NCBI GenBank assembly: GCA_002723085.1
Contig: PBNK01000037.1
Coordinates: forward strand, 1 to 43,361
From: Crocinitomicaceae bacterium
GTDB taxonomy: Bacteria > Bacteroidota > Bacteroidia > Flavobacteriales_D > Parvicellaceae
Reading direction: 5' to 3'
DNA: 43,361 nt
Positions 19,419 to 27,960 of the stretch are shown one piece after another. Both the position numbers and the translations under genes were made by a program. Positions within the stretch are counted from its first letter, which is position 1, and every line of letters begins with the position of its first letter. The notes beneath the pieces were generated by a model. The model saw only the letters and a list, made by a program, of their open reading frames with translations, ran no database searches and was not told the origin of the DNA.

Positions 19419-22400
19419 GTGTTGTTAATAAAGTTCAAAATTAGTTTTGTTATTATTTTTTGTGTTTTTAATCAAATAGTATTCTCTCAAGATTTTACAA
19501 TTAAACATTTTCCTCCTCAATTTCAAGGTCTTAGCGCAAATTGCAATGAAATGATTCAAGATATTAATGGATATTTATGGATATCAACAGATGATGGTCT
19601 TTGTCGGTTTGATGGTGAAGTATTTAAATTATACACTACAACTGAGGGGCTAAAAAGACATGAAGTTACGTCAATTGCTGAAGGCAATAATGGTGAAATT
19701 TTTGTTTTTACAAGGGGAGGGGTGTCATTAATTAAAGATTTTAAACCGGTTAATTCTGAATTAGATGATTTGCCCTTTTTTGGTAAAAAAAAGATTATAA
19801 ATGTTTATTATGACAAGAAATCTGATTTTATTTATTTAGTTTCTGATAAAGAAAATCAATTACATAAGTACGATAACATAAATAATGTTCTTCATCAAAA
19901 TATTAATAATTGTATTTTAAGAAAGATTGATATTGATTCAACAACATTTATTATTACGAAATCATTTGATTCTGAATCATTATTGTCAATAAAAAATAAT
20001 GATACTGTAGTAATTACATCTAATGCAGATGAGATCTATGATGTTTTAAAATTAAATGAAATTATTTACGCTTTAATTGATGGTGAATTGTACGAAATTA
20101 AGAATCAAAAAATTATAAATAAAAAGTTTTTTATTAATGGATTTGATGCTAAAATAGAATTAATTGAAGTAGTGAAAGATGCCATTTATTTTGTTTCAAA
20201 AAATATTCTATATTATTATAATGGATTAGCTGTTAAAAAAGTTTTAAACGGTACTAATTTCACTCGAATAAAGTCACTTTTTGTTGATAATGAAAACAAT
20301 CTTTGGGTTTGTACAGATAATGGAATTTTAAAAATTAATATCTCTCCATTTAATGGATATGATTCTAAAAATCATCTATATGGAGTTCCAACCAAAATTC
20401 ATCGAGATAGACAAGAGAAACTATGGGTTTCAACTCTAGATGGTTTATTTTATAAATATGATACAAGTTCTTTTTTTAATCAAGTTTTAAATGATCGGGT
20501 TTATAATTTCACCATTTTAAATAATGATAATATTCTTTTTTCCTCAATAAAAAATGGCAAATATTATTTAGGAAAGTTCAATCAAAATTTAAATAAATCA
20601 AATAAATTTTTGATGAAATCCGAAAAAATAGGAAATAGAACATTACAATACATTAATCAAAAAATTATTACTTCTGAGTTTTCTTTTTCAAGAGATTTGA
20701 AAGACAATGTTTTAGTTGTAGGGTTAAATAATAATTTAATTATTAATCTAGATAGTAATCTACAATTAACAGAATTTTTTGATGAAAAAAGATTGGGTAA
20801 AGAAGATTGGATTCCATCATTATTTTGTCATAGTAATGGAGATTTATGGTTTAGGTCAAGTTCAGGAGCAAAAAGGATTCGAAATTCAAAAGTTAAAAAT
20901 TTCAAATTAGATAAAAATGGTTTTTATGGTTTCATAGAGGATGAAAGTGGTAATTTAATTGCTGTCTCAGATGTAGGACTAACCTATATATATTTGGATA
21001 AGGGAGACATTAAAAACTACAAACATTTTAATAAAACAAATGGACTTTCAGAAAATTCTATTTACACTTTTTCTTATTTAAACAATAAAGATTTATTGTT
21101 GGGAACCTCAAGAGGCTTAAATAAAATAATTGATTTTACAGATTCTTTAAATGCACAAAAGTTGGATGTAAAGTTCTTTGATAAAAAAGATGGTCTTATT
21201 GGTGTTGATTTTTATAAGAATGCATCTTTTTTAGATAAAGACAGTTCAGTTTGGATGGGTACCTCAGAAGGGTTAATACATTACTTTCCTAAAAAAGATG
21301 TGTCAAATAAAGTACCTCCAAATTTATTTTTAGAAGAAATAAAATTTCAAAATACTTCTCAAAAATCATGGAGTTTAATAAATGGTGATTTTGATAAAAT
21401 TAAAAATGTAAATACCCCTTTCTTTTATCATTATCAAAATGATTTGACTTTTGATGTGAAGGCCATTTCTACTTCTAATCCAAAAATGTTAAAATACTCA
21501 TATTATTTAGAAGGTGCTGAACCTAAATGGAATGAGCCTACAACGTCTTCGTTTTCAAGATACACCAATTTAGCTCCTGGAAATTATGTATTTAAATGTA
21601 AAGCAATTAGAACATCTGATGGCGTTGAAAGCAAAATTTTAACATATCCTTTTAAAATTGATTCTCCTTTTTATTACAAAACATGGTTTTATATACTAAT
21701 AATTTCTGGATTTGGTTTGCTTATATATTTGTTCGTATATGTTAGAGAAAAGCAACTTAAACAAATAAATAAATCTTTAGAAAGAAGAGTAGTTTACAGA
21801 ACAAAACAGTTAGATGATGAAAAGAAAACTGTTGAAAAACAAAATGAGTTAATTACAAAAAGCATATCCTATGCAAAACGCATTCAGTATTCAATTCTTC
21901 CAAAAGTAGAATTGATGGATGCTTTTTTTACAGATCATTTTATTTATTATAAGCCTAAAGATATTGTTGGAGGTGATTTTTATTGGTTTAGATCTTTTGA
22001 TGATTTAGCAGTTATTGCAGCAGTAGATTGTACTGGTCACGGAGTTCCAGGTGGTTTTATGACTATGATGGGCAGTTTATTACTTGATAAAATTGTCCAT
22101 AAAACCAATTTAGATACTTCTAAAATTTTGTATGATTTAAATTCAGAAATCATTAGAGTTCTGAGACAAGAATATGAAGGTTCTATGCAGGATGGAATGG
22201 ATTTGTCTATTTGTTTAATAGATAAGAAAAAAAGTGAAATTCATTTTAGTGGGGCCAGAAATGGGGTGTATGTTTTTGAAAATAATGTGGCAAAACATTA
22301 TGAAGCTGATTTGATACCTGTTGGTGGTTTTCATAGTAAAAAAAGCAAAGAATTGCACAGAGAATATTCTCAACAAAAAATATCAATTAATAAAGATAGT

Positions 22401-22613
22401 TGGGTATTTATGTATACGGATGGATATATTGATCAATTAGGTGGCGATAAAATGAGGTCTATGGGCATGAAATTATTTGAAGTGGCAATTAAAGAAGCTA
22501 TTTCTTTAAGTTCAAAAGAGAGTCGCGAAGAGCTATTACAAATGAAATATGATAATTGGAGAAAAAATATTCCACCTATTGATGATGTACTTCTAATAGG
22601 TTTTAAAATTTAA
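19419..22613 (+). CDS. Membrane sensor with regulator-propeller input and PP2C/SpoIIE phosphatase output (SiaA-like)
   Basis: Signal peptide (1-24), then about 600 residues of two-component-regulator propeller repeats (for example DINGYLWISTDDGLCRFDG and NENNLWVCTDNGILKI) and a Y_Y_Y domain (about 670-750, ending APGNYVFKCKA). One membrane span (about 756-776, beginning WFYILIISGFGLLIY) and a coiled-coil linker follow. The cytoplasmic end is a SpoIIE-type PP2C phosphatase with PKDIVGGDFYWF (D853), AAVDCTGHGVPGGFM (D870) and GSMQDGMDLSICLID. The enzyme should dephosphorylate a Ser/Thr phosphoprotein in response to a periplasmic signal. The convergent SiaC homologue is the natural substrate. 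Start is GTG 19419, directly followed by TTG, and either could serve. The stop shares TTAA with siaC. Confidence 0.9.
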   Translation: MLLIKFKISFVIIFCVFNQIVFSQDFTIKHFPPQFQGLSANCNEMIQDINGYLWISTDDGLCRFDGEVFKLYTTTEGLKRHEVTSIAEGNNGEIFVFTRGGVSLIKDFKPVNSELDDLPFFGKKKIINVYYDKKSDFIYLVSDKENQLHKYDNINNVLHQNINNCILRKIDIDSTTFIITKSFDSESLLSIKNNDTVVITSNADEIYDVLKLNEIIYALIDGELYEIKNQKIINKKFFINGFDAKIELIEVVKDAIYFVSKNILYYYNGLAVKKVLNGTNFTRIKSLFVDNENNLWVCTDNGILKINISPFNGYDSKNHLYGVPTKIHRDRQEKLWVSTLDGLFYKYDTSSFFNQVLNDRVYNFTILNNDNILFSSIKNGKYYLGKFNQNLNKSNKFLMKSEKIGNRTLQYINQKIITSEFSFSRDLKDNVLVVGLNNNLIINLDSNLQLTEFFDEKRLGKEDWIPSLFCHSNGDLWFRSSSGAKRIRNSKVKNFKLDKNGFYGFIEDESGNLIAVSDVGLTYIYLDKGDIKNYKHFNKTNGLSENSIYTFSYLNNKDLLLGTSRGLNKIIDFTDSLNAQKLDVKFFDKKDGLIGVDFYKNASFLDKDSSVWMGTSEGLIHYFPKKDVSNKVPPNLFLEEIKFQNTSQKSWSLINGDFDKIKNVNTPFFYHYQNDLTFDVKAISTSNPKMLKYSYYLEGAEPKWNEPTTSSFSRYTNLAPGNYVFKCKAIRTSDGVESKILTYPFKIDSPFYYKTWFYILIISGFGLLIYLFVYVREKQLKQINKSLERRVVYRTKQLDDEKKTVEKQNELITKSISYAKRIQYSILPKVELMDAFFTDHFIYYKPKDIVGGDFYWFRSFDDLAVIAAVDCTGHGVPGGFMTMMGSLLLDKIVHKTNLDTSKILYDLNSEIIRVLRQEYEGSMQDGMDLSICLIDKKKSEIHFSGARNGVYVFENNVAKHYEADLIPVGGFHSKKSKELHREYSQQKISINKDSWVFMYTDGYIDQLGGDKMRSMGMKLFEVAIKEAISLSSKESREELLQMKYDNWRKNIPPIDDVLLIGFKI

Positions 22614-22951
22614 CTGCCAATAAATTCAAATGGTACATTTAAAATGGCTTCCAATTCTTTTCCTCTGTCAAACATGATGATATGATCATTAGGGTAGTTC
22701 CAAATTACTTTTCCATCTATTTTATCATCTTCTAGCTTAGATAGTATTTGAATGAATTGTTTAGCAGATGATGAATTGAAATAATTCAGATTAAAGTCAA
22801 TAGTAATTGATTTATTTGAGCTCAAAAAATTATCTATCCAATCTTTAGTTGGTTGATAAAAGTCCATGGCATCTTCCATCATAGATATTCCCGAAATAGA
22901 AATACTTCCGTTATCATCGAAGTTTATTGTTGGTTCACTAAATTCATTCAT
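22610..22951 (-). CDS. SiaC-family (DUF1987) regulatory phosphoprotein
   Basis: A 113-residue cytoplasmic protein matching the SiaC/DUF1987 pattern in order: a short beta start with GSISISGISMMEDAMDFYQP, a helix (TKDWIDNFL), ITIDFNLNYFNSSSAK, IDGKVIWNYP and a C-terminal PFEFIG. In Pseudomonas aeruginosa SiaC, a Thr in the corresponding YFNTSS motif is phosphorylated by SiaB and dephosphorylated by SiaA, and unphosphorylated SiaC binds the diguanylate cyclase SiaD. Here the acceptor position appears to be Ser (S60 in YFNSSS). The gene lies 18 bases after the SiaB-like kinase gene and shares stop bases with the PP2C gene. The output partner is unknown. Confidence 0.87.
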   Translation of the reverse strand: MNEFSEPTINFDDNGSISISGISMMEDAMDFYQPTKDWIDNFLSSNKSITIDFNLNYFNSSSAKQFIQILSKLEDDKIDGKVIWNYPNDHIIMFDRGKELEAILNVPFEFIGS

Positions 22952-22969
22952 AGTTTTTTATTTTTAAAT

Positions 22970-24058
22970 TTAAATATAAAATGGAATTAAAACTCCTGCG
23001 GTAAGGTAAAATCCTATATCATCAGTTATTATTTCGTAATCAAAATTAGAATGGTTATATCGCCTTACATCTATTAGTCCAACACCAGCATTTTTAGTGT
23101 CAGTTAAAGCATTCTCTTTTAAAGTAGTAAGGTATATTTTTTGAAGTTCATCTTTGTTAAAGTCATTTAGCTTGTCAAAGTGTTTTTCAACTTTACTAAA
23201 CTCGCCATTTTTTATATAATTTCCAGTTGATAAATAAAAACCACTTTCATCTTTCATTAAACAAAAAATACCTTCAATTTCTCCATTTATACTTTTTCCA
23301 TGTCTGGAAATGTTTTGAATTAATTCAACGGCAGTATGAAAAATTCTATAATCGTTAAATTCTTTATTTTTACTAGATTCTTTCGTGTTAGATTGAATAA
23401 TACTTAAAATGGCATTTGCATTTTCTTTTTTAAAGTCACCTTTGAAAAGAAAAACAATATCATTTTTATTTATTGAGTTAAATAAATCAATATTATCAAC
23501 TATATCTATTTTATCATAGTCTTGAATAGTTTCTTTTTTGTTTACTGAAAAATCTAACTGATATTGAAATAAATTATTTTCTTGATTAATGGGCGAAAAT
23601 TTATATTGAATTGGATTTCCAGACTTTCTAGCCATTTGAATTAAGCCGAGTCCGGCTCCTCCTTTCTCAGAAAATAATCCAGATTTTAGAATTTCTAAAT
23701 AAAGTTTTTTTAATTCTTTAGAATTGCTTTGGTTAATGTTTTTTAATTTATCAACTAAAAGATTAGAACTAGTTAAGTCAATAAGATTTGATGAAAATAT
23801 ATGAAGATTTTCTTCTACACTTCTTAAACCAAACATTTCATAATTAATTTCATCTTCTTTTTTGTAACGAACAATATTTTGAAAAACCTCAACCATTAAA
23901 AATGATAAGTTTTTTTTAACTCCAGAATGTTCTTCGTGATCAGTAAGTTGAACGAGTAATTCAGTGAAGCTATCACTAAATAAACCTGCGTAAAAAAGAG
24001 AAACTAGATCATTTCTCAATTCCTTTTTATACTCATATATCTTATTAAGATGTTTCAA
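22970..24058 (-). CDS. Tandem-duplicated SiaB-like kinase (DUF6272, GHKL fold)
   Basis: A 362-residue cytoplasmic protein made of two SiaB-like halves (1-172 and about 190-362). Single-domain SiaB proteins have about 180 residues. Half 1 keeps the glycine-rich ATP-lid motif SEKGGAGLGLIQMARKSG (130-147), but its N-box is VEVFQNIVRYKK (E57, N61), with the usual RHG replaced by RYK. Half 2 keeps the N-box VELIQNISRHG (E245, N249, 252-254) and the STGN strand (277-280), but its glycine motif is eroded to DTKNAGVGLIDVRR. Each half therefore carries one good and one degraded half-motif. The start is TTG (24058-24056), since an in-frame stop lies just upstream and no Met occurs before residue 55. 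Predicted to phosphorylate the SiaC homologue. Confidence 0.85.
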   Translation of the reverse strand: MKHLNKIYEYKKELRNDLVSLFYAGLFSDSFTELLVQLTDHEEHSGVKKNLSFLMVEVFQNIVRYKKEDEINYEMFGLRSVEENLHIFSSNLIDLTSSNLLVDKLKNINQSNSKELKKLYLEILKSGLFSEKGGAGLGLIQMARKSGNPIQYKFSPINQENNLFQYQLDFSVNKKETIQDYDKIDIVDNIDLFNSINKNDIVFLFKGDFKKENANAILSIIQSNTKESSKNKEFNDYRIFHTAVELIQNISRHGKSINGEIEGIFCLMKDESGFYLSTGNYIKNGEFSKVEKHFDKLNDFNKDELQKIYLTTLKENALTDTKNAGVGLIDVRRYNHSNFDYEIITDDIGFYLTAGVLIPFYI

Positions 24059-24106: not shown

Positions 24107-26155
24107 TTATTGAACAATAATCTTTTTAATTAACCTTTCATTTTTCGTTTCTATAATCATAAAATATATTCCAGATTGATTTATAGTAATTGAGTTTCTG
24201 TTTGAATTGTAATTTACTGATTCAGTTTTATTGAGTAGTTGACCTTTGCTGTTAAATACCCTAATGTTATTAATTTTATCTGAGTGTTTTATTTCAATTT
24301 CTTGATTAGATTGAACTGGATTTGGATATAAAACAACATCTTCATTTTTAATATTACTTAAACTTGTAACCTCGTTATTTATATAAAAACTTTCAGATAT
24401 AGTGTTGCCAAAATTCCCATTTCCATTAACTATAGTAGCATTAGTAAAATCTTTAATTGTCCAAGATCCATTAGCTCCCATTCCATTACCTCCACTATCT
24501 ATTATTGTAAATTCATAACATTCAAATAAAAATAAATTCAAGATTTGATTAATAGTAGTGTTTGCATCCACCCCACCTCCACTTGGGTCACAATTATAAG
24601 GACCTCCGCTGTATAAAATTAATCCGCTAGGTGCTGTAATTTTCCATGTTGTTTCGTTGCAAAAATCATCTAAATTTAAAGTTAATGTTAGTGGTGATGT
24701 AGCATTAGGTGTGCAAGACGGTGTTCCAAGTTTAAGAACATATGCATCAAAATCTCCTATAGAAGTATTGTTGTTTGTTGTAGGGCCTGGGTTAAAATCA
24801 ACTTCATTTTGGAAATCACCACAAATTAAATAATTGCCTTGATTATCTAATGTGAAATCATTCACGCAGTCATCTCCAACTGAGCCTAATGTAATGGCGT
24901 TAATGAAATTCCCATTTTCGTCTAATTTTTGAATTATAATATCCATAAATCCATTGCTAGTAATAGTTTGTGATGCAGTTCCGGGATTAATGTCCGAAAT
25001 ACCTCTAAAAAATCCAGCAGTTAAGACATTTCCATATTGATCTACTTTAATGCTGTTTCCTCTGTTAAAATTGTTGTTTCCAAAGCTTTTAACCCATGTG
25101 AAATCCCCAAGATTAGAAAGCTTTAAGGTATACACATCTTCATAACCTATTGATGATAGGTTGTAACTGCCATTGTTGGGGTCAAAATCTACAGTTTCAC
25201 TAAAATAACCTGTTAAGTATACATTTCCATAGCTGTCCGTTTCAATATCTGTTGCACCATCGTTTCCATTTCCACCAATTGATTTTGTAAAAATCATATT
25301 TCCAGAAAAATTAAGTTTTTCTATAAATATATCTTCATTTCCATTAGATGTTAAATTAGTTACGCTATTGGTTGGGTTAAAGTCAGCTGTTCCTTCAAAC
25401 GTTCCAGTTATGTATACAAATCCAAAGTTGTCAATTGATAGGCTGGTGGCAACGTCATTATCACTTCCCCCCATTGTGTTAACACTTGAAAAATTGCCTA
25501 AAAAGTTTAATTTCAATACATAAATATCTTCTCCACCAGCAGATGTTTTTGAACTAGTTCCTGCTCCATCATTAAAGTCAACTGTACTTCTAAATGATCC
25601 GGCTATCCATACATTTCCAAATGAGTCTACCGAAATGGCATTTCCATAGTCAAAATTACTTCCACCAAAGCTGTAACACCAACCAAAATCTCCATTCATA
25701 TCAAGTTTTAATACGAAAGCATCATATTGCCCATTAGACGTTTTGTTTTCTGTACCTGAACCAGGATTAAAATCTACAGTCCCTTTAAAAACTCCAGTAA
25801 TGTAAACATTTCCACTGTTGTCTATTGCTATGTCTTTTCCGTAATCAAAATTACTTCCTCCAATTGTTTTTGCCCACTCTAAATTTCCATTGGAATTGAA
25901 TTTTTGAATATAAATATCACTTTCACCATTTGAAGTTATCACTGAGCTTGATAAACCAGGATCTATATCAATAGTGTTTCTAAATGAACCGGTAACATAA
26001 ACGTTGTTGTTTTGATCAGATACTACAGCATTGGCGTGTTCAACGCTATAACTTCCAATAGAGTTACACCAATGGTATTCTTGAGTAATGAAAACGTTGA
26101 ACAGCCCATTTAAATAAATAAAACCAATCAGTACAATTTGTTTGAAAAGGCTCAC
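24107..26155 (-). CDS. SBBP-repeat beta-propeller protein with T9SS type A tail
   Basis: Secreted 682-residue protein. A hydrophobic N-terminus (1-23) is followed by about eight SBBP-type repeats (about 36-475), each around 55 residues with the pattern DNxGNVYxTGxFxGTVDFNPGxGTxxxTSNGxxDxFxxKL. A Cys-containing beta domain (about 478-590, with SGGPYNCDPSGGG and DSGGNGMG) and a type A Por_Secre_tail (VLYPNPVQSNQEIEI to KRLIKKIIVQ) complete it. Start is GTG; no alternative Met is near. It lies 23 bases after the upstream PKD/T9SS gene and 48 bases before the SiaB-like gene, so all four minus-strand genes could be one transcript. Function unknown; surface propeller. Confidence 0.88.
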   Translation of the reverse strand: MSLFKQIVLIGFIYLNGLFNVFITQEYHWCNSIGSYSVEHANAVVSDQNNNVYVTGSFRNTIDIDPGLSSSVITSNGESDIYIQKFNSNGNLEWAKTIGGSNFDYGKDIAIDNSGNVYITGVFKGTVDFNPGSGTENKTSNGQYDAFVLKLDMNGDFGWCYSFGGSNFDYGNAISVDSFGNVWIAGSFRSTVDFNDGAGTSSKTSAGGEDIYVLKLNFLGNFSSVNTMGGSDNDVATSLSIDNFGFVYITGTFEGTADFNPTNSVTNLTSNGNEDIFIEKLNFSGNMIFTKSIGGNGNDGATDIETDSYGNVYLTGYFSETVDFDPNNGSYNLSSIGYEDVYTLKLSNLGDFTWVKSFGNNNFNRGNSIKVDQYGNVLTAGFFRGISDINPGTASQTITSNGFMDIIIQKLDENGNFINAITLGSVGDDCVNDFTLDNQGNYLICGDFQNEVDFNPGPTTNNNTSIGDFDAYVLKLGTPSCTPNATSPLTLTLNLDDFCNETTWKITAPSGLILYSGGPYNCDPSGGGVDANTTINQILNLFLFECYEFTIIDSGGNGMGANGSWTIKDFTNATIVNGNGNFGNTISESFYINNEVTSLSNIKNEDVVLYPNPVQSNQEIEIKHSDKINNIRVFNSKGQLLNKTESVNYNSNRNSITINQSGIYFMIIETKNERLIKKIIVQ

Positions 26156-26178: not shown

Positions 26179-27960
26179 TTAATGTTGAATAACTATTTTT
26201 TGTTGGATGTTTTCTTTATTTGATTTTCCAATTATGATATATTGACCGTTTTGTAAGTCATTTATATCAATAATAAATGGAGATTGATTTGGTGAATATC
26301 TTGAAACCAATCTTCCAGACATATCAAAAATATCAATTTCATAAATAGCTAAGCTTTGGGGCCAAAGTACTGAAACTATATCTTTAGCAGGGTTAGGGAA
26401 GCACCACCATTTAGCATTACTTTCTTCGACTCCAACACTGTAGGTATAAGGGCTAGTAACATATTTGCAACCAGTGGTTAAATCTAAAATCATAGCACTA
26501 TAATCGCCACTGTTTGTTGGGCTAAAAGTAGTTGAGTTTGCACCAGGAATTAATATACCGTTTTCATACCAACTTACTGAATGCCCTACTGGAATAACCG
26601 TATATAAATCTAAATTAGCATTCATATCAATTGAGTAGCTTATGGATGGATCACAATAAACTATATATATGCTGTCTGAAATGGAAGAACATCCAAAACT
26701 ATTGTATGCAATTACGTAATAATTACCAGTACTCATGATGGTGTCTATTGGATCAGAATGTCCTGCTATCATGTTTGAATCTAAGTACCATTGTAAAATA
26801 AATTGTGAAGAATCTGTGTACACAATGTAGTTTGCAGAATCGTATACAATATTAGGAATTCCAGGGCTATTGCCTACAGAAATTGTATCGGCACTCTGTA
26901 CAGATGGAACAGGGTTAACTTGTTGATAACCGATTACTGTAGATACTGTTGCATTTGAACCTGCAGTACAATTGGAGCAACTAACAAAGTTCATAACATG
27001 CGTACCTAGGTTATCATCAGAACCAAAAACAACTTCAGATTGATTACAAGTTGCAGCTGTTTGATCACCATCAAAAACAGTTAATTCATAGTTTTTATTA
27101 GGGTCAAGATTTATATTTACTGGCCATGTTATTGGGTCGTCTTCATTGCATTCAATTGAAGATTGATAGATTAATGTTCCATCTTCATAGATAATAAAAT
27201 AAGGGTCAGGATCATTTCCATTTGTATAAACAAATGGTATGTATTCAGGTCCCCAACCACCACTTATGTTTTCAATGGTGACTTCAGTCAGCGTATATAC
27301 ATCTAGTGTGTCAATGTTTGAATAAGCAGTATAACTGATGGGGTAGCTGCCTGGATTTGTATAAGTTTGCGTTGGAGGAGTTTCTAAATTACTAGATTGA
27401 CCGTTTCCAAAATCCCATTCGTATAAAATTAAACCAGGATTGTTGTTTGTGAAGTCAACATCTAGAGGGGCACATCCAACACCTGTACTTGAAGTAAAAC
27501 CTGTGTTTCCAACAGCTGCACTGTTAATGGTAAGACTTATTTGGAAATCAATGGGAATATTATCGATGTTTTGACCAGAAGCAATTACATCAACTAAAAT
27601 GCCTACATCAATATCAAATGTTCCAGTTGTTAGAGGAGCTCCAAAAATATTAATACATCCATACTGATTGTTTTGAGGATTGTAATTGCATCCGTTAGAA
27701 GAATTGTTGCAAATCCAGTCTAAACCAACAGGAAGAGCAATACTTATTATTTCAAAGTTTTGTATGGTTGCACCCATTGTATCTAATGGCATAACAAAGG
27801 TTATGTCTTCAGAATAGGCTTGTCCTGCATATCCATCAGGAAGGGGATTAGGATATATTCCAGGAGCAGTATAGGTGTAATCAATAGTACATTGTCCTGT
27901 ACTATTGTTGATTATGGAAAAAGAAAATAAAAGGCAAAAGATGTAAGGTGAAAACTTCAT
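26179..27960 (-). CDS. PKD-domain secreted protein with T9SS type A tail
   Basis: A 593-residue exported protein. It has an N-terminal signal peptide (1-22), a beta domain (GQAYSEDITFVMP, putative Ig-like), a PKD domain with the WDFGNGQSS core and PGSYPISYTAYS, and further beta/Ig-like Cys-containing modules with repeated DSI/SYSI-type strands such as CSSISDSIYIVYCDPS. It ends in a type A sorting domain (WWCFPNPAKDIVSVLWP ... EIDIFDMSGRLVS ... KIVIQH). ATG start with no clear consensus promoter in the 79 bases upstream. No catalytic motif was seen. Probably an adhesive or structural surface protein. Confidence 0.88.
   Translation of the reverse strand: MKFSPYIFCLLFSFSIINNSTGQCTIDYTYTAPGIYPNPLPDGYAGQAYSEDITFVMPLDTMGATIQNFEIISIALPVGLDWICNNSSNGCNYNPQNNQYGCINIFGAPLTTGTFDIDVGILVDVIASGQNIDNIPIDFQISLTINSAAVGNTGFTSSTGVGCAPLDVDFTNNNPGLILYEWDFGNGQSSNLETPPTQTYTNPGSYPISYTAYSNIDTLDVYTLTEVTIENISGGWGPEYIPFVYTNGNDPDPYFIIYEDGTLIYQSSIECNEDDPITWPVNINLDPNKNYELTVFDGDQTAATCNQSEVVFGSDDNLGTHVMNFVSCSNCTAGSNATVSTVIGYQQVNPVPSVQSADTISVGNSPGIPNIVYDSANYIVYTDSSQFILQWYLDSNMIAGHSDPIDTIMSTGNYYVIAYNSFGCSSISDSIYIVYCDPSISYSIDMNANLDLYTVIPVGHSVSWYENGILIPGANSTTFSPTNSGDYSAMILDLTTGCKYVTSPYTYSVGVEESNAKWWCFPNPAKDIVSVLWPQSLAIYEIDIFDMSGRLVSRYSPNQSPFIIDINDLQNGQYIIIGKSNKENIQQKIVIQH

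Follow-up and report, generated by a model that had tools for sequence, protein, structure and literature searches.

A predicted SiaABC-like partner switch with a propeller sensor and a tandem kinase, probably serving an output other than cyclic di-GMP synthesis

In this work, we describe three genes in a 43,361-nucleotide stretch of Crocinitomicaceae DNA (hereafter the window; contig PBNK01000037.1 of assembly GCA_002723085.1) that very probably encode a Sia-type kinase/phosphatase/phosphoprotein switch with an output other than the synthesis of cyclic di-GMP (c-di-GMP). The window has a GC content of 30% and belongs to a 2.43 Mb genome that is 95% complete. A preliminary description had located there a propeller-sensor PP2C phosphatase, a SiaC-family phosphoprotein and a SiaB-like kinase; the three open reading frames (ORFs) are present at 19419-22613 (+ strand), 22610-22951 (- strand) and 22970-24058 (- strand), and profile matches confirm their families. 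The same description read them as a SiaABC-type partner-switch module, which agrees with the three protein families, a SiaA-like PP2C and a serine at the position of the phosphorylated threonine of SiaC. At the level of sequence, the case consists of these families with intact active-site motifs, a tandem kinase, a conserved module, a gene fusion, the swapping of sensors and the absence of GGDEF and PilZ domains. The switch would work like SiaABC, which belongs to the same protein families, with its phosphorylation and dephosphorylation steps taken by analogy from Pseudomonas aeruginosa.

The sensor-phosphatase gene (19419-22613, + strand, GTG start) encodes a predicted membrane protein of 1064 amino acids, assigned from profile matches, a match to SiaA, alignment and a predicted structure. 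It begins with a hydrophobic N-terminus taken as a signal peptide, followed by Reg_prop propellers, a juxtamembrane Y_Y_Y domain in the periplasm (residues 686-747; 21474-21659, +), one predicted transmembrane helix (about residues 756-777; 21684-21749, +; WFYILIISGFGLLIYLFVY) and a coiled-coil linker, and ends in a PP2C/SpoIIE phosphatase domain (residues 865-1061 by Pfam; 22011-22601, +). In the model a single helix spans residues 755-826, so that the transmembrane segment would continue as a signalling helix to residue 826. The profile search gave E-values of 9e-13 for SpoIIE, 4e-12 for Reg_prop and 1.5e-11 for Y_Y_Y, and no histidine kinase or response regulator domain was matched, the C-terminus being PP2C. 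The linker and phosphatase match P. aeruginosa SiaA (6k4e) with an E-value of 7.5e-32, the predicted structure also matches the SiaA PP2C domain, and the residues at the usual metal-ligand positions (D853, D870, D1001 and D1056) are invariant among eight aligned homologues. The sensor itself matches the periplasmic domain of BT4663, a hybrid two-component system (HTCS) protein, both in sequence (8e-13) and in predicted fold (5e-37). The earlier proposal that a propeller with Y_Y_Y replaces the usual SiaA input thus stands, with an HTCS-type sensor. The model of the whole protein is of moderate quality (pLDDT 69, pTM 0.53), thus the propeller blades were left uncounted.

On the opposite strand, the kinase gene (22970-24058, -) encodes 362 amino acids from an apparent TTG start. 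The preliminary description called the product SiaB-like, which is right as to family and incomplete as to architecture, as the protein carries two SiaB domains in tandem, both with ATP-site motifs. DUF6272 matches it over two stretches (1.6e-53), as does the NCBIfam model for SiaB family protein kinases (NF038262; 183.8 bits, cut-off 85). Domain 1 (residues 1-178; 23525-24058, -) has the motif E57..QN61 and GGAGLG at 133-138, and domain 2 (residues 186-358; 22985-23503, -) has E245..QN249 and AGVGL. The first domain is assigned by profile and alignment, the second by profile and by structural alignment; in the predicted structure (pTM 0.85) domain 2 superposes on the SiaB of 6kko over 164 residues at 2.5 A (Z 18.7). 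Among 46 tandem SiaBs, the N-box glutamate and asparagine of the ATP site are retained in every first domain and in all but one second domain (45/46). Tandem SiaBs occur in Flavobacteriales and Bacteroidales. All first domains form one group in the domain tree (SH-aLRT 99), separate from the second domains, and because of this the tandem arrangement looks like one old event.

The apparent starts of these kinases are unusual. TTG is used in the window (24056-24058, -) and at L077, L082 and L086, and at five further loci (L078, L080, L081, L087 and L088) the apparent start is ATT or ATA, with no ATG, GTG or TTG at hand. More distant tandem SiaBs mostly start with ATG, all start sites being placed by alignment. 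Judging from these codons, non-ATG starts could throttle kinase synthesis.

The third gene (22610-22951, -) encodes a SiaC-family phosphoprotein of 113 amino acids, recognised by Pfam PF09345 (87.6 bits, cut-off 24.5, E 6e-25), by NCBIfam profiles and by alignment to 6kko. In P. aeruginosa, SiaC Thr68 is the residue phosphorylated by SiaB (PMC8457831). It aligns with Ser60 of the window protein (codon 22772-22774, -), the acceptor proposed earlier; the alignment upholds the position, and we regard Ser60 as the predicted phosphosite. Across 74 SiaC sequences this column holds serine in 36, threonine in 30, isoleucine in seven and valine in one. The residues by which SiaC contacts SiaD were compared from alignments, those of helix alpha-3 by hand. 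The window protein keeps Y65, N67, T68 (as serine), S69 and E110 and departs from P. aeruginosa SiaC at D29, Y31, I71, M75, D79, R103, L107 and D114. With Y, N, S and S retained and most SiaD contacts altered, the alignment indicates that the phosphate-carrying core is kept and that the rest of the partner surface mostly is not. We found no SiaC fused to another kind of domain: the long SiaC of L093, a candidate for this, is a double SiaC only.

Some SiaC paralogues carry isoleucine or valine at the phosphosite and have no adjoining SiaB (L127, L134, L141, L145, L147, L152, L159 and L164). Judged by this residue, they may be naturally non-phosphorylatable SiaCs. Four of them (L127, L134, L147 and L164) adjoin genes for a LytTR response regulator with a histidine kinase, an OmpH-like protein and DUF4924.

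These parts suggest the following mechanism, in which three steps are inferred from P. aeruginosa SiaABC: a ligand sets the PP2C activity, the kinase acts on Ser60, and SiaC binds its partner when unphosphorylated. A ligand would bind the periplasmic propeller and Y_Y_Y domain, and the transmembrane helix and coiled-coil linker would relay the state of the sensor to the cytosolic PP2C domain, setting its activity. The tandem SiaB would phosphorylate SiaC at Ser60 and the PP2C would remove the phosphate. Unphosphorylated SiaC would then bind and activate, or release, a partner that would be encoded outside the triad and would be no diguanylate cyclase.

The arrangement of the three genes is not peculiar to the window. 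The PP2C and SiaC genes converge and their stop codons overlap tail to tail by four nucleotides (TTAA, 22610-22613), as ORF coordinates and a comparison with relatives indicate. The same convergent triad of tandem SiaB, SiaC and propeller-PP2C is found in genera g2 and g4, with different flanking genes in g2, and the nearest named relatives with the module include several Crocinitomicaceae metagenome-assembled genomes. The overlap in relatives is four nucleotides at L062, L068 and L070 (the same loci as L082, L081 and L086, respectively), and 14 nucleotides at L063-L065 and L072, in another genus. Counting non-redundant loci with enough flank, SiaC lies directly downstream of tandem SiaB at 21/37, and a PP2C gene adjoins tandem SiaB at 16/34, convergently at 10/34. 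In the PP2C tree, nine of the 12 PP2C domains whose genes converge on tandem SiaB group in one clade (support 100/99), which joins propeller-bearing proteins of the family to PP2Cs of distant Bacteroidota (L089, L093 and L095). The two of these that were checked, L089 and L093, carry TPR repeats in place of a propeller. A single clade spanning propeller and TPR sensors points, on the evidence of the tree, to a catalytic PP2C domain that has kept its association with the kinase through changes of sensor. Furthermore, in one Bacteroidia genome (L107) a single ORF of 1540 amino acids unites the propeller and Y_Y_Y sensor with PP2C and the two SiaB domains, and SiaC follows it. No effector gene recurs beside the triad across the loci compared.

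Two other patterns emerged around these loci. Upstream of tandem SiaB, with a few genes in between, is a second propeller-PP2C, from a different clade (L081_5355, L082_4054 and L086_5612), beside a homologue of the window gene at 26179-27960, which is described below. In three genera, a universal-stress-protein-like gene (named by eye) adjoins SiaB or SiaC from a different paralogue set (L155, L167, L168, L174, L191, L194, L196, L198 and L206).

The nature of the output was approached through the c-di-GMP components. The preliminary description had noted that no GGDEF gene is near and that the output must differ from c-di-GMP synthesis, and it had named a GGDEF protein elsewhere in the genome that binds this SiaC as evidence that would count against it. 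Neither a GGDEF nor a PilZ domain was found in the whole genome, which has four SiaC genes, four SiaB genes (five domains) and nine PP2C genes; three of the SiaC and three of the SiaB genes lie away from this locus. SiaC is present in 39/39 genomes of the family, with one to 11 copies each, and GGDEF exceeds its cut-off in 1/39 (G029). We set this match aside as a counter-example, as that genome is 7% contaminated, and a further match in G028 is weak and under the curated cut-off. In a sample of 296 genomes from the phylum, SiaC was found in 17, and the five of these that belong to the same class have no GGDEF. Two genomes from another family of the phylum (G163 and G171) show the classical arrangement, in which SiaC adjoins a GGDEF gene. 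Because GGDEF and PilZ are lacking in this genome, GGDEF is nearly absent family-wide and the SiaD contacts are mostly altered, c-di-GMP synthesis is a very unlikely output.

Several observations weigh against this account of the module and its output. Given the 95% completeness of the genome, it is possible that a single GGDEF gene was missed. The genome has a second propeller-PP2C (G000:C2, L030), with 35% identity to the window protein, and the triad PP2Cs of L081 and L082 have 44-47% identity to it against 36% to that of the window. Because of this nearness, the L030 protein may be the real phosphatase for the window SiaC, or may share its substrate. The PP2C of the L107 fusion falls outside the triad clade, and for this reason the fusion supports a functional link and not orthology. 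Finally, G004 and the three g9 genomes have tandem SiaB and SiaC without a convergent PP2C, and in G036 no SiaC ORF was found adjoining the tandem SiaB either.

One alternative would specify the partner that a Sia-type switch with a non-c-di-GMP output leaves open. The genome has exactly one match to class III nucleotide cyclases, in a protein with Reg_prop propellers, Y_Y_Y, a transmembrane helix, a coiled coil, the cyclase and an HD domain. In P. aeruginosa, SiaC activates SiaD through binding its coiled-coil stalk (PMC8457831), and a SiaC-type protein might likewise bind the stalk of this propeller-cyclase and control cyclic AMP-type signalling. The cyclase gene lies 23 bp downstream of a SiaA-type HAMP-PP2C on the same strand. 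A sister genus, g9, keeps the pair (at 49% and 48% identity), and in three of its genomes the cyclase adjoins a Usp-SiaB-PP2C-SiaC set. However, this link was seen in a single genus and with another SiaABC set, and no such pairing is seen at the window module or at the other loci compared. We therefore consider the cyclase an unlikely output of the window module: as a partner of the window's own SiaC it is a guess, while as an effector for some SiaC of the family it is a reasonable candidate, by analogy with the SiaD stalk.

YfiR is usually linked to a diguanylate cyclase. At L029:2920-10069 (- strand; G000:C2) a YfiR-like gene (DUF4154) accompanies a class III cyclase instead, in an apparent operon with a TPR gene, a HAMP-PP2C and the propeller class III cyclase with HD. 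A more far-reaching reading, to which we give a rather low probability, is that the GGDEF-free Crocinitomicaceae have rewired the SiaABC switch throughout the family, and that its new effectors include a class III (adenylyl-type) cyclase with the same propeller sensor. On this reading the Sia proteins would work as a partner switch of general use, with c-di-GMP control as only one of its outputs.

A second alternative, which we judge improbable, is that the tandem SiaB is itself the output, as in SpoIIAB and RsbW, with SiaB releasing another protein, such as a sigma factor or regulator, once SiaC binds. The SiaB model does align with these anti-sigma kinases, more weakly than with SiaB (Z 12-13), and it is conceivable that one domain serves the substrate and the other a target; domain 2 is the less conserved (mean identity 29% vs 38% for domain 1), and some tandem SiaBs have no adjoining SiaC. 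However, the likeness is one of fold only (about 10% identity), the kinase motifs are kept in domain 2, and no conserved sigma factor or regulator adjoins.

Control of surface properties or gliding had been suggested from neighbouring genes for cargo of the type IX secretion system (T9SS). Upstream of the kinase, on the same strand, lie an SBBP beta-propeller protein with a T9SS C-terminal tail (24107-26155, -; 48 bp away) and, after a further 23 bp, a PKD protein with such a tail (26179-27960, -), both identified from the ORF list and profiles. It is possible that the SBBP gene is co-transcribed with the kinase, and homologues of the PKD gene occur near the module in four relatives, adjoining it in only some of them. 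However, T9SS tails are common, with 87 matches genome-wide, the SBBP gene is absent from the corresponding place in relatives, including the closest (L061), and most relatives, other genera among them, have different neighbouring genes. The suggestion is thus not borne out: we rejected the neighbours as weak functional evidence, and control of T9SS secretion or gliding by the module seems highly improbable. Another SiaC paralogue, at L136 and L153 in two genera, adjoins T9SS-type genes (a large protein, PorP/SprF and a PD40/PKD protein), which is a point in favour of such control. Lastly, that an unrelated propeller phosphatase stands by chance beside a SiaB-SiaC pair, an objection that the preliminary description itself had raised, is barely credible even with nine PP2Cs in the genome and some SiaB-SiaC pairs in relatives lacking one, because the triad is kept in other genera, its PP2Cs, despite exchanged sensors, share one clade and a fusion exists, all of which, as read from sequence, marks a co-inherited module.

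The closest known system to the predicted Sia-type switch is P. aeruginosa SiaABCD (PMC7647112, PMC8457831), with which the window shares a SiaC-family protein with serine or threonine at the T68 position, a SiaB-family HATPase kinase and a PP2C homologous to SiaA across linker and catalytic domain. It differs in lacking SiaD and any GGDEF protein in the genome, in its two-domain kinase, in its propeller and Y_Y_Y sensor, in a PP2C gene that is convergent and outside the operon, and in most SiaD-contact residues of SiaC. The equivalog cut-offs for SiaABCD are also missed (SiaA NF038263, 182.9 of 700 bits; SiaB NF038264, 74.7 of 225; SiaC NF038265, 51.4 of 150). With neither these scores, nor a single operon, nor SiaD, the module lies outside SiaABCD proper. 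In its periplasmic Reg_prop propellers and Y_Y_Y domain the sensor resembles the Bacteroides HTCS proteins BT4663 and BT3049, whereas its output domain is PP2C and not a histidine kinase or response regulator. The SpoIIAB/SpoIIAA/SpoIIE and RsbW/RsbV/RsbU switches likewise combine a HATPase Ser/Thr kinase, matched by SiaB in fold, with a STAS-like phosphoprotein and a PP2C, but they belong to other sequence families and the window locus has no sigma factor. The cyanobacterial slr1658/slr1659 superfamily (NCBIfam) gives weak matches to the kinase (53.8 bits) and to SiaC (19.6 bits), both under the family cut-offs of 100.

To our knowledge, control of a diguanylate cyclase is the only role for which SiaABC has been characterised. 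Our literature searches found no paper under DUF6272 or under the names of the SiaB and SiaC families, and under DUF1987 the P. aeruginosa SiaD study only; nor did they find any on Bacteroidota Sia homologues, Bacteroidetes partner switching or Reg_prop-SpoIIE proteins. A family rich in SiaC, SiaB and PP2C genes and with practically no GGDEF implies further outputs of the switch, and offers a clean system for finding them without a c-di-GMP background. Compared with the known systems, the tandem kinase, the fusion of kinase and phosphatase and the exchange of propeller and TPR sensors on one PP2C clade suggest how such a switch gains new inputs.

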